This document shows positions 1 to 33,519 of a DNA stretch of 33,544 nucleotides, in pieces; position 1 is the first letter of the stretch; each line of letters opens with the position of its first letter. The stretch spans positions 1 to 33,544 of the forward strand of contig PNJE01000029.1 of assembly GCA_002877915.1 (NCBI GenBank), in the 5' to 3' direction. A program made the translations under genes and the position numbers. The notes below the pieces were generated by a model. It was not told where the DNA came from. It was given only the letters and a program-made list of their open reading frames with translations, and ran no database searches. This DNA is from Candidatus Aminicenantota bacterium (GTDB lineage Bacteria > Acidobacteriota > Aminicenantia > Aminicenantales > Saccharicenantaceae).

Positions 1-116
1 CAATCAAGAAAATGGCTTGTGGCTTTCGCAACCGAGAACATTTTAAAATCGCTATTTACTTCCATTGCGGTGACTTAAACCTTTACCCTGAAACCCACTA
101 AAATGGCTGATGAGCC
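1..116 (+). mobile_element. Right end of a truncated (by window edge) insertion sequence, possibly ISL3-like
   Basis: The first ~100 bases encode the C-terminus of a transposase, followed by a short non-coding end. The likely outer boundary is the small palindrome GGCTgatgAGCC at 105-116, so the terminal inverted repeat read inward would begin GGCTCATC. The next bases (117-124, taaaaaat) would be one copy of an 8-bp target duplication if this is ISL3-like. The other IS end lies outside the window, so neither the repeat nor the duplication can be confirmed. The boundary is about 30 bp upstream of the nitroreductase start. Family assignment is from recalled similarity only. Confidence 0.55.
3..101 (+). 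CDS. Transposase, C-terminal fragment (5' part outside window)
   Basis: Frame 3 is open from the window edge to the TAA at 99-101, giving 32 residues. They contain the strings ACGFRNREHFK and IYFHCGDLNLYPETH. These match the well-known end of DDE transposases of the ISL3/IS204-like type, where a GFRNxExF motif is followed by a short tail with HCGxLDLYP. The catalytic DDE residues lie upstream, outside the window, so whether the element is intact cannot be judged. The gene ends about 15 bp before the proposed IS terminus, the usual compact arrangement for such elements. The transposase call is fairly firm; the exact family is not. Confidence 0.6.
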   Translation: MKKMACGFRNREHFKIAIYFHCGDLNLYPETH

Positions 117-146
117 TAAAAAATTTAATGATAAGAAGAGGGAAGA

Positions 147-701
147 ATGGATATGTCCCTGGATGAAATAATCAGGCAAAGGAGAAGTATCCGCCGGTAT
201 CTTTCAAAACCGGTCGAAAGGGAAAAAATTATAGCCTGCCTGGAAGCTGCTCGCTTAGCTCCTTCGGCCGAAAATAGCCAGCCGTGGCGTTTCCTGGTTA
301 TAGACGATTCTGAACTTAAAGTTAAGGTGGCCGAAAAAGCCTTTTCTGGTATTTACTCTATGTGCCGATTTGCCGCTCAGGCTCCAGTTTTAGTCCTCCT
401 CCTGGCCAAGCCAGATATTCTGGCCAACCGGTTAGGAAAGTTAATTCAGGGCACTCAATTTTATCTTCTGGATGTAGGGATAGCTGGTGAGCACTTTGTC
501 CTAAAGGCTGAAGAGTTGGGGTTAGGAAGTTGCTGGATTGGGTGGTTTAATCAAAGAGCCGTCCGAAAACTTCTGAGAATACCCAGGGGATTTCACTTAG
601 TAGCCATAATCGCCGTCGGCTATCCAGAAAAAAGGCCAACCGGGGAACATTTGAGAAAGCCCCTGGAAGAAATTGCCTGGTTTAATCGTCTTGGAAAATA
701 A
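147..701 (+). CDS. Nitroreductase family protein (FMN-dependent oxidoreductase)
   Basis: The 184-residue protein has the classic nitroreductase layout. The N-terminal RQRRSIRRY (about 10-18) supplies the basic FMN-phosphate-binding residues, SAENSQPWRF (about 40-49) is the second flavin contact, and GLGSCWIGWF (about 125-134) is the usual C-terminal-half motif before the AVGYPEKRP end. Family members are homodimeric cytoplasmic FMN enzymes reducing nitroaromatics, quinones or flavins with NAD(P)H; the short length suits the small subgroup common in anaerobes. The substrate cannot be told. The ATG at 147 follows AGAGGGAAGA, a reasonable Shine-Dalgarno; a second ATG at 153 is possible. It ends 27 bp before the metallophosphoesterase and is probably cotranscribed with it. 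No convincing promoter lies in the 30 bp between the insertion sequence and the start. Confidence 0.88.
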   Translation: MDMSLDEIIRQRRSIRRYLSKPVEREKIIACLEAARLAPSAENSQPWRFLVIDDSELKVKVAEKAFSGIYSMCRFAAQAPVLVLLLAKPDILANRLGKLIQGTQFYLLDVGIAGEHFVLKAEELGLGSCWIGWFNQRAVRKLLRIPRGFHLVAIIAVGYPEKRPTGEHLRKPLEEIAWFNRLGK

Positions 702-28744: not shown

Positions 28745-28773
28745 AATGTCCTCCTTAATATCTTTAAGATGAA

Positions 28774-28802
28774 ATTCTATTTCAAATCGAAGCTTTTGTC
28801 AA
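28774..28802 (-). promoter_or_regulatory. Sigma70-type promoter of the exbD-like gene
   Basis: On the minus strand, an exact TTGACA (28797-28802), a 17-bp spacer and TAGAAT (28774-28779, 5 of 6) give a start near 28767 and a leader of about 23 bases. Confidence 0.7.
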
Positions 28803-28832
28803 ATAACTTTTCAATATTCCGTTTTAAAAATC

Positions 28833-30361: not shown

Positions 30362-31828
30362 ATGAAAAGCAAAAATGCTTTGATTTGGGTTTCAGTATTT
30401 TTGGTTTTTTGCTTAGTTGCCAGTGCTTCAGCTGAAGTTAAGAAGATAAAATCAATCGGTCATTTTACCTTTGCCCGAGTTCGGGGGAAAATTCCAACTC
30501 CAGAAGTAATGAAAATGCTGGCTGACCGCTATGCCGGTGATATTAAATATGGCTTTGATCAGGCTGGCTATGGAGATATTTATTTGGCTTTTATCGAACA
30601 ACTTAAATCGGCTAAGTTCGAAGACACGACTTGGAATCCAGGAGAAACGGTAAAGTGGATGTTATTTCGATCTCATGGGAGAACCAAGGTAACTGGAGAG
30701 CTTGAATGGGCCGGAAAAAAGCCAGTGGAAGTTTTTGCGGTAAAAGTGAAGAAAGGTTTCAAAACTTATACCTTTATAATTCCCAAGCCATGCGGCAATA
30801 TTGCTTTGAAAAGTGAAGTGGAAGAGATTCCCGAAGCTATCTGCGCTCTTTCGGTTTCGCCGGCCAAAGCCAATATTAATGACCCAATCTCTGTGGATAT
30901 GAGTGCCAGTCAGTACGCTAAGAGTTTGAGAGTGGAGATTTACGATAAGCAAGGAAACAAAGTGGCCAGCAAGGATTTAACGCCGGGAGCGACCAAGTGG
31001 CAGACCAAGTTTGATAAGCCCGGCGAGTATTTATTTAAGGGTGTGGCGATTAATTTTGCTGATAAAGCCTCGGTTAATCCCTGCGAGGGCAAAGTTTATA
31101 TTAATTTCCCACCAATCGGCAAAGTTGTTCCGAACTGTTTATATTGTCGGGAGTATGTCGGTCGACCTTTGACCTTTGATGCTTCTGGCTCTTATGATCC
31201 GGATGGCGAAGTAACCAAGGTTTCTTTCGAATTGACCGACAGCCAGGGGCAGGTTGTTGATACTTACACGGCGGCTCAAAAACCTTTTATCTGGAAAAAG
31301 ACGCTTTACCGTAAAGGGAGCTATACAATTTCTGTGACTGCCTATGATAATGATGGAGCGGCTTCCAGTTCGACGCCTGATTCCCATAAGACCATCCAGG
31401 TAACCAGGAAGACTCTCTTTGTAACGACCGAGGTGGGACCGCTACTGGCTCATGGTTCTTCTTATACGGGATTTGTTTTTGCCAGGGCAGGAATGTTCTT
31501 GTGGCTAAATCCTGACCGGACAAGCCTGTCCTTTACCAGCGGAGCTGCTATGCCGACTAAAGGAGCTCCCTGGAAAGCAGCGATCAGTGCTAATCTTCTG
31601 GGTAACATTCATTTCGGACAGTTTTTCACCGGGCTCGGTGTTGGTTTTATGACCAAGGAAAGATCCGATCGTAAAGATGGAGTGGATGCATTAGTTCAAG
31701 TGGGTTGCAACCTTTCTTCTAACATTTATTTTAATATGTGGCAGTTATATTTCGAATTCAGAGTTCCGATCGGTCGCTCATTCACCGATTGCCACAAGTT
31801 TGCTCTCGGACTGAGATACAACTTCTAA
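30362..31828 (+). CDS. Secreted PKD-domain protein with barrel-like C-terminus, copy 1
   Basis: The 488 residues start with a Sec signal (hydrophobic 6-20, cleavage after SASA near 24). Next is a domain of unknown function (about 25-150, EVKKIKSIG start, with WAGKKPVEVFAVKV). An Ig/PKD-like unit (about 160-248, LSVSPAKANINDPISVDMS to VYINFPP) is followed by a clearer PKD repeat (about 250-348, LTFDASGSYDPDGEV to ISVTAYDNDG), which opens with CLYC. The last ~140 residues are beta-strand-rich with alternating residues (GPLLAHGSSY, LGVGFMTK, LYFEFRVPIG) and end LGLRYNF; the C-terminal phenylalanine is the outer-membrane signature. An outer-membrane barrel bearing periplasmic PKD domains is therefore likely. 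GGAGG lies close before the ATG. It is a tandem duplicate of the next gene. Confidence 0.8.
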   Translation: MKSKNALIWVSVFLVFCLVASASAEVKKIKSIGHFTFARVRGKIPTPEVMKMLADRYAGDIKYGFDQAGYGDIYLAFIEQLKSAKFEDTTWNPGETVKWMLFRSHGRTKVTGELEWAGKKPVEVFAVKVKKGFKTYTFIIPKPCGNIALKSEVEEIPEAICALSVSPAKANINDPISVDMSASQYAKSLRVEIYDKQGNKVASKDLTPGATKWQTKFDKPGEYLFKGVAINFADKASVNPCEGKVYINFPPIGKVVPNCLYCREYVGRPLTFDASGSYDPDGEVTKVSFELTDSQGQVVDTYTAAQKPFIWKKTLYRKGSYTISVTAYDNDGAASSSTPDSHKTIQVTRKTLFVTTEVGPLLAHGSSYTGFVFARAGMFLWLNPDRTSLSFTSGAAMPTKGAPWKAAISANLLGNIHFGQFFTGLGVGFMTKERSDRKDGVDALVQVGCNLSSNIYFNMWQLYFEFRVPIGRSFTDCHKFALGLRYNF

Positions 31829-31857
31829 TTTCTTTAGAAACAATTGATTAATTAAAT

Positions 31858-31883
31858 CAGGGTAATTAAGCCAGGTTGCCCTG
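31858..31883 (+). terminator. Stem-loop between the tandem PKD genes (weak terminator or attenuator candidate)
   Basis: CAGGGTAA (31858-31865) pairs with TTGCCCTG (31876-31883) over 8 bp, including one G-T pair, with a 10-base loop, 30 bp after the stop of copy 1. No good U run follows (agagttaatttt), so it may be partly terminating or simply stabilise the transcript. Confidence 0.35.
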
Positions 31884-31993
31884 AGAGTTAATTTTGCCAG
31901 CCTAATAAATCCCTGGTTGAATAGAAACATTTATCAAAATAACAGGAAAACCAAAAAAATAATAGTGGCAAAATAATAGTTGCCTTAATTTTC

Positions 31994-32022
31994 TTGACAA
32001 TTCCTAATTTTTCTTATTTAAT
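31994..32022 (+). promoter_or_regulatory. Sigma70-type promoter of the second PKD protein gene
   Basis: An exact TTGACA (31994-31999), a 17-bp spacer and TTTAAT (32017-32022, 5 of 6) give a start near 32029 and a leader of about 30 bases. It has the same -35 and -10 hexamers and spacer as the aminotransferase promoter at 11200-11228. Confidence 0.7.
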
Positions 32023-32058
32023 TAAGAAGTCAATGAAAGAGAAATGGAGGTAAGGCTC

Positions 32059-33519
32059 ATGAAAAAAAGCAAAATTCTGGTGTTAATGGGCTTGTTTTTA
32101 GCCTTAGTAATGGTGGTTCAAGCTTCGGCTGAAGTTAAAAAAATCAAGTCAATCGGTCAATTTACCTTTGCTCGAGTTCGGGGCAAAATTCCAACCCCGG
32201 AAGTAATGAAAATGCTGGTTGATCGTTATTCCGCTGATATCAAAACCGGATTTGAGCAGGCTGGTAGTGCCGATCTTTATCAGCCTTTTATCGATCAGCT
32301 GAAAACTGCTCAATTTGAAGACACCACCTGGAATCCAGGCGACACTGTCCAATGGATGTTATTCCGCTCTCATGGCAAGGTAAAAGTAAGTGGAGAGCTT
32401 GAATGGGCCGGGAAAAAGCCGGTAGAAGTTTTTGCCGTAAAAGTAAAAATCGGATTCAAGACTTATACCTTTATTATTCCCAAGCCATGCGGCAATATTG
32501 CTTTGAAAGGTATGGTAGAAGAGATTCCCGAAGCCATCTGCGCCCTTTCAGTTTCTCCGGCCAAGGCCAATATTAATGACCCGATCACTGTGGATATGAG
32601 TGCCAGTCAGTATGCTAAAAGTCTAAGAGTTGAGGTTTATGATAAGCAGGGAAACAAAGTGGCCAGCAAGGATTTAACCCCGGAAGCGGCCAAGTGGCAA
32701 ACCAAATTTGATAAGCCCGGAGAATATTTATTCAAAGGTGTGGCGATTAATTTTGCTGATAAAGCTTCGGTCAATCCTTGTGAGGGCAAAGTTTATATTA
32801 ATTTCCCGCCCGTGGCTAAGGTGGTGCCAAGCTGCACCGAATGCAAGAATTATTATGGTCGTCCCATAACCTTTGATGCCTCGGGTTCATCTGATCCAGA
32901 TGGCGAAGTAACCAAGGTTTCTTTCGAATTAACCGATAACAATGGCCAGGTGATTGATTCTCATGTTGATACTCAAAAACCATTTACCTGGGAAAAAACC
33001 CTTTATAAAGAAGGAACCTTCAATATCTCAGTAACTGCTTATGATAATGATGGAGCTTCTTCTGCCTCCACTCCCGATTCTAAAAAGAGTATAACCGTAA
33101 CCAGGAAAAAATTATTCGATCTGATTGAAGGTGGCCCGCTTCTGGCTCATGGCTCTTCCTATCAAACCTATATTTACTTCCGGACGGGGCTTTTTACTTG
33201 GATAAACCCCGATAAAATCAGTCTGACCTTCACTGCTGGAGCTGGCGCCCCGCTTAAAGGTTCGCCCTGGAAAGCTATTATGCTGGCTGAGCTCCTGGCC
33301 AATGCTCATTTTGGCAATTTCTACTTGGGAGCTGGACCTGGATTTACTACCAAAGAAGAAACTGGTAGAAAAGCTGGTGTTGATGGCGTGGGCCAGATCG
33401 GCTATACCATTTTCAATAATTATTTGAAGATGAGCCAAATCTTTTTTGAATTCCGAGCTCCAATTGGCCGGACCTTCGATTCCCATAAGATGGCCATTGG
33501 TTTCAGGTATTGTTTCTAA
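32059..33519 (+). CDS. Secreted PKD-domain protein with barrel-like C-terminus, copy 2
   Basis: A longer frame begins at 32044, but the ATG at 32059 has GGAGG at ideal spacing, as in copy 1, and gives a normal signal peptide (486 residues, cleavage after QASA near 24). Domain order equals copy 1: unknown domain (25-150), Ig/PKD-like unit (160-248), PKD repeat (250-348, FDASGSSDPDGEV, opening with CTEC) and a barrel-like region ending IGFRYCF. By eye the first ~250 residues are nearly identical to copy 1, while the PKD repeat and the last 140 residues differ much more. It has its own strong promoter, so the two copies can be expressed independently. Outer-membrane location is inferred from the signal peptide and the terminal phenylalanine; what the PKD domains bind is unknown. 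Confidence 0.8.
   Translation: MKKSKILVLMGLFLALVMVVQASAEVKKIKSIGQFTFARVRGKIPTPEVMKMLVDRYSADIKTGFEQAGSADLYQPFIDQLKTAQFEDTTWNPGDTVQWMLFRSHGKVKVSGELEWAGKKPVEVFAVKVKIGFKTYTFIIPKPCGNIALKGMVEEIPEAICALSVSPAKANINDPITVDMSASQYAKSLRVEVYDKQGNKVASKDLTPEAAKWQTKFDKPGEYLFKGVAINFADKASVNPCEGKVYINFPPVAKVVPSCTECKNYYGRPITFDASGSSDPDGEVTKVSFELTDNNGQVIDSHVDTQKPFTWEKTLYKEGTFNISVTAYDNDGASSASTPDSKKSITVTRKKLFDLIEGGPLLAHGSSYQTYIYFRTGLFTWINPDKISLTFTAGAGAPLKGSPWKAIMLAELLANAHFGNFYLGAGPGFTTKEETGRKAGVDGVGQIGYTIFNNYLKMSQIFFEFRAPIGRTFDSHKMAIGFRYCF

Follow-up and report, generated by a model that had tools for sequence, protein, structure and literature searches.

Probable partial gene conversion between tandem, predicted outer-membrane paralogues of an Aminicenantota bacterium

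Gene pair and genomic setting

The window analysed here is an entire contig of 33,544 bases, taken from a draft assembly of 187 contigs that is the only genome of the source species used. The named relatives of this genome are mostly MAGs of Candidatus Aminicenantes or Acidobacteriota. Two long ORFs lie in tandem at the end of the contig, where the sequence-only reading had placed them, and the contig stops 25 bases past the second. A search of the genome itself found these two as the sole loci of the family. The genes and the domains discussed below are:

30362..31828, + strand: copy A, a 488-residue predicted outer-membrane protein with signal peptide, N-terminal domain, Ig domain, PKD domain and 8-stranded barrel (ORF, Pfam FlgD_ig and PKD, AlphaFold, NspA/OmpA barrel match)
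31106..31402, + strand: PKD domain of A, codons 249-347, 70% identical to B
31403..31828, + strand: predicted C-terminal 8-stranded beta-barrel of A, codons 348-488, 57% identical to B
32044..33519, + strand: copy B, tandem paralogue of A, 491 amino acids as listed

For copy B a start at 32059 is more likely, giving a protein of 486 amino acids in register with A.

Upstream of A are genes for an acyl-CoA dehydrogenase, ExbD, an ACT-domain protein and a glutamine-amidotransferase, while in the relative G017 genes for TruB, DHH and IF-2 are found downstream of the pair. The genomic setting is one of housekeeping genes, and the pair is syntenic across relatives. Several congeners carry a long ORF of ~580 amino acids between the ExbD and ACT genes (L061 2054-3802; CstA-like by Pfam in G003), whereas the window lacks this ORF at 28745-28832. 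The sequence retrieved around the complete A+B pair of G017, G016, G001, L055 and G006 shows no third family copy after the pair, and by comparison none would be expected beyond the window end.

Protein architecture

The AlphaFold model of A (pLDDT 88.5) consists of a signal helix, an N-terminal domain with three helices and a sheet, an Ig domain, a PKD domain and eight C-terminal strands. With a pTM of 0.55, the arrangement of these domains is uncertain. Pfam places a PKD domain (PF00801) in A at 24.5 bits and in B at 24.0 bits, against a cut-off of 23.5, and FlgD_ig matches copy A. Structurally, residues 248-349 of A are aligned to the PKD domain of the bacterial collagenase ColG (4tn9; VIA-align Z 13.3, 1.4 Å over 86 residues, 24% identity). 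However, unlike in the collagenases, no catalytic domain was found in A/B, and the PKD domain is joined to the predicted membrane barrel.

The eight predicted strands span residues 352-487, and the C-terminal residue is Phe in both copies and in all 28 aligned rows. The prediction is of an 8-stranded outer-membrane beta-barrel with an OmpA-like transmembrane fold: in VIA-align, residues 347-488 of A match NspA (1p4t; Z 16.8, 3.2 Å over 139 residues) and OmpA (1bxw; Z 15.3, 2.4 Å over 137 residues), with an identity of only 9-14% to the 8-stranded barrels of OmpA, NspA and OmpW. In A/B the barrel is C-terminal, after Ig and PKD, unlike in OmpA, where it is N-terminal. As to the OmpA family proper, no OmpA-like C-terminal domain was found in A/B (Pfam, E<=1) or among the families listed for 28 members (E<=0.1); instead, the barrel ends the protein. 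Nor was a C-terminal sorting domain of type IX secretion cargo found, the Por_Secre_tail and CHU_C matches of A/B lying inside Ig or PKD. The topology of 8-stranded barrels places a long N-terminal part in the periplasm, and the N-terminal, Ig and PKD domains would therefore be periplasmic.

The N-terminal domain (residues 26-155; 30437-30826 in the window) is modelled confidently, with a pTM of 0.83. In Foldseek the top hit was lysostaphin SH3b at E 0.084, short of the threshold of E<=0.001, and among 997 chains none reached a Z of 5 or more (best Z 3.0). The modelled fold may be new, although the lack of a match is no proof of this. As far as Pfam and literature searches show, the protein family is undescribed: no paper was found that joins Aminicenantes, 'outer membrane' and 'PKD domain', and the sole match for Aminicenantes and 'gene conversion' concerns, in the part of it available, fluoroquinolones.

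Distribution in relatives

A homologue was found in 126 of the 148 related genomes searched. Among 18 congeners, two or more matches are present in five (G001, G006, G016, G017 and G018, all tandem pairs), one in ten and none in three. In G018 (C10; L062 5665-7418) copy B is split into two overlapping frames of 486 and 109 amino acids, owing either to a frameshift or to a mistake in the assembly.

G003 (C12; L061 5252-6739), which is closest to this genome in its flanking genes, has a single copy in which A-like and B-like residues are mixed. The diagnostic residues hint at a deletion chimera with an A front and a B back; such a fusion is possible from the sequence, and we do not claim it, as no hypothesis was rejected in the five segments.

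A distant relative from another family, G034 (C61; L080 781-4332), has its own tandem pair. Here 89% of the same-residue codons are identical, and 96% over codons 156-437, which would fit an independent recent duplication or conversion taking in most of the barrel. Other distant relatives differ in their domain sets. Of the four domains, L075 and L076 have the N-terminal one only, L077 and L078 have an N-Ig-barrel order without a separate PKD, and L079 is Ig-PKD-barrel with the N-terminal domain not detected. Judged from these domain sets, the modules recombine at deeper divergence.

Mosaic divergence between A and B

The amino acid identity between A and B is 40% for residues 1-25, 84.0% for 26-150, 93.9% for 151-248, 69.7% for the PKD domain (249-347) and 56.8% for the barrel (348-488). 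The sequence-only reading had described just such a mosaic, with a similar front half and a diverged barrel half, and had called residues of about 25-250 almost the same. The latter is correct for the region as a whole (88% over 26-248) but not uniformly so, as identity drops to 70% over residues 61-100 within it. The divergence of the back half had been overestimated: differing positions make up ~30% of the PKD domain and ~43% of the barrel, not about half.

Silent sites also show the low divergence of the front half. The uncorrected synonymous difference pS is 0.52 for 26-150, 0.42 for 151-248, 0.67 for 249-347 and 0.78 for 348-488, i.e., it climbs in parallel with the amino acid divergence. 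Uniform divergence, the outcome that would have spoken against the mosaic, was not seen, as a two-rate HMM on the A/B nucleotide alignment outscores a single rate by 44 log units. The HMM gives three low-divergence tracts, at 30430-30535, 30690-31110 and 31180-31238 in A coordinates; the main one stops at codon 250, the Ig/PKD boundary, and the third, short one sits within the PKD domain.

30690..31110, + strand: main low-divergence, putatively converted tract in A, codons 110-250, 10.7% nucleotide difference to B (HMM, trees, AU tests)
32387..32807, + strand: main low-divergence, putatively converted tract in B, partner of A 30690-31110 (HMM)
30430..30535, + strand: second, shorter low-divergence tract in A, codons 23-58, B partner 32127-32232 (HMM; AU test non-significant)
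30542..30661, + strand: putative unconverted island in A with A-specific residues, codons 61-100 (A+B sisterhood rejected, AU p=0.005)

The ~11% of sites at which A and B still differ within the tracts make an assembly collapse unlikely. Long runs of identical DNA do exist, as had been noticed by eye, the longest being 33 nt at 30779/32476. However, in 500 shuffles the mean maximum is 20.8 and the largest 38 nt, and the run was rejected as sole proof of conversion.

Silent and diagnostic sites suggest conversion, apparently in both directions

Of the four-fold sites in identical codon boxes, 36/56 agree between A and B in 101-248 versus 25/73 in 249-488 (Fisher p=0.0008), and the four-fold identity in 101-248 is the highest among the 66 pairs examined. 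At third positions 68-77% match in 101-248 and 35-48% in 249-488. A max-segment permutation test on same-amino-acid codons gives p=0.027 for this pair, with p<0.05 also in 4 of 14 other pairs. Given this modest signal the test was set aside as main proof, and we rely on topology tests.

At nucleotides diagnostic for A or B, the two copies have a common state at 23 of 30 sites in 101-248, the proper A/B split being kept at four. Of 98 such sites in 249-488, 29 retain the split and 33 have a common state. The back half is thus not free of shared states, and it is the topology tests, not the diagnostic sites, that set it apart. By segment, both copies have the B state at 4/9 sites in 26-60 (both A at none), the A state at 8/14 in 101-150 (both B at two) and the B state at 9/16 in 151-248 (both A at four). 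Because the sharing is mixed in this way, conversion seems to have gone both ways, from A to B and from B to A. Its timing is weakly defined, since outside the tracts synonymous change approaches saturation.

Segment trees are in conflict

The pair of L055, a near twin of G001, was left out of trees, diagnostic counts and averages, and the G034 pair out of the AU tests. The broken copy B of G018 was left out of all gene comparisons, and partial copies at contig edges (e.g., G007) were left out throughout.

For residues 101-248 and 151-248, the best tree joins the two copies of this genome as sisters, and a clade of A orthologues is rejected by the AU test (p=0.0008 and p=0.0017, respectively); the ultrafast bootstrap for A+B in 101-248 is 100. 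The reverse is seen around and behind this region, where A+B sisterhood is rejected: p=0.005 for 61-100, p=0.023 for 249-347 and p=0.0002 for 348-488. Taken singly, segments 26-60 and 101-150 do not significantly favour any topology. A segment in which the paralogues are sisters is thus flanked by segments rejecting that sisterhood, as in gene-converted tandem paralogues, and the silent sites follow the same mosaic. Gene conversion, one of the explanations that the sequence-only reading had named, is borne out by these reciprocal tests, and the recombination tests that it proposed for the pair and its orthologues do conflict between segments.

In the best tree of 151-248 there is a second grouping of A with B, within the subclade of G017, G016, G001 and G018, which the AU tests reject for 249-347 and 348-488. 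This suggests an earlier conversion event in that subclade, to judge from the sequences. G006 has no excess A/B identity in the Ig region (69% within the genome). In the 348-488 tree the A copies form one clade (bootstrap 100), and the B copy of G006 groups with eight single copies of congeners (82). From these groupings the duplication is probably older than the split, with A lost in the single-copy lineage.

Constraint alone does not explain the front half

Strong constraint on the front half had been the other explanation for its likeness. Purifying selection that acts harder there than on the barrel, without any recombination, would agree with the low dN/dS of the front half (about 0.05-0.10) and with residues 26-150 being the most conserved part of A among orthologues (90%; 85% for B). 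However, constraint would make orthologues equally alike in the same segment, and this is not the case. In 151-248 the mean identity is 73% for 15 A-A pairs and 83% for 10 B-B pairs, against 94% for A and B of this genome; the A orthologues differ at a mean of 27% of residues and the pair at 6%. The silent sites of the pair are likewise more alike, whereas the silent divergence of orthologues is about equal along the gene, and the significant conflict between segment trees contradicts this explanation. We consider it very improbable.

The barrels do not show surface diversification

It had also been proposed that the membrane-exposed half is diversifying, i.e., that phage or hosts drive the barrel apart while the front half is kept. 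A/B divergence is indeed highest in the barrel, and in the alignment some B copies of relatives have 5-6 extra residues near loop 1, outside the loop count. Among orthologues, however, the barrels are 79% (A-A) and 78% (B-B) identical. Neither Ig nor PKD of A (both 73%) exceeds this, nor does the PKD of B (78%), and only residues 26-150 and the Ig of B (83%) are more conserved. The model gives short loops of 5-9 residues, and in the A/B comparison their identity (71%) exceeds that of the strands (53%), with loops assigned from the predicted model and columns gapped in A left uncounted. Orthologues show 79-81% identity in loops and 77-78% in strands. Conservation is poor in one turn, 451-458 (25% A/B identity). 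The loops thus lack the faster evolution, relative to strands, that would be expected of a hypervariable surface protein, and the flanks hold housekeeping genes; a surface arms race is hardly credible here. Within-genome A/B barrel identity is 53-59% in all five compared genomes with two intact copies, and judging from these comparisons the barrel difference is an old, stable difference between the A and B paralogues.

A model of conversion in patches

We suggest that A and B are very probably old tandem paralogues that have undergone partial gene conversion, in patches, with their paralogue-specific barrels kept. Each is predicted to have a Sec signal peptide, three periplasmic domains and a C-terminal 8-stranded barrel. 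In this lineage ordinary homologous recombination would have pasted patches of one gene over the other, apparently in both directions: the main patch covering codons ~101-250, i.e., the end of the N-terminal domain and the Ig domain, and codons 23-58 probably too. The PKD domain, the barrel and codons 61-100 would mostly have escaped overwriting and so have retained sequence that has long been specific to A or B. These limits are most simply explained by a need of conversion for near-identical runs, so that the similar half would keep exchanging, whereas the barrels would have become too diverged to pair. Selection that favours two different barrels may contribute.

In a stronger form, selection itself would stop the tracts at the domain boundary for reasons of function, keeping a periplasmic module identical for a common partner and the two barrels distinct. 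The end of the main tract at the Ig/PKD boundary, the conversion-like Ig-region grouping in the second subclade and the similar barrel identity in the five genomes would all agree with such domain-level concerted evolution. However, the same pattern would fit a neutral account in which DNA converts only where it is similar, G006 lacks the excess identity in its Ig region, and the third tract lies inside the PKD domain. We therefore regard it as possible but unlikely.

Known parallels and meaning

Partial gene conversion between A and B would be a known and ordinary process acting on an undescribed protein family. According to the available part of PMC4552749, bab outer-membrane paralogues of H. 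pylori recombine over part of the gene, another part being paralogue-specific, and A/B likewise exchange one part and keep the other distinct. In bab, as described there, conversion yields phase-variable adhesin chimeras and the middle region is paralogue-specific; A/B, in contrast, are tandem and syntenic, the membrane barrel is kept apart, and there is no sign of unusual variability among orthologues. In prokaryotic concerted evolution of 26 genes, recurrent conversion makes paralogues of the same genome more alike than orthologues, and short-term concerted evolution often hits outer membrane protein genes (PMC6053082, in the part available). A/B resemble this in that paralogues exceed orthologues in likeness, but here in part of the gene only.

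It can be speculated, with considerable doubt, that this Aminicenantes outer-membrane family, its N-terminal fold perhaps new, has a periplasmic module that is repeatedly homogenised between tandem copies while the barrels stay apart, because the two proteins would share a periplasmic partner and do different membrane jobs.

The pair would offer a clean, testable case of partial gene conversion in an uncultured lineage, with a homogenised half set against a paralogue-specific membrane half, and it cautions against taking such mosaics for surface diversification. Beyond this, the pair draws attention to an outer-membrane family that is undescribed and occurs in most of the relatives searched (126/148).
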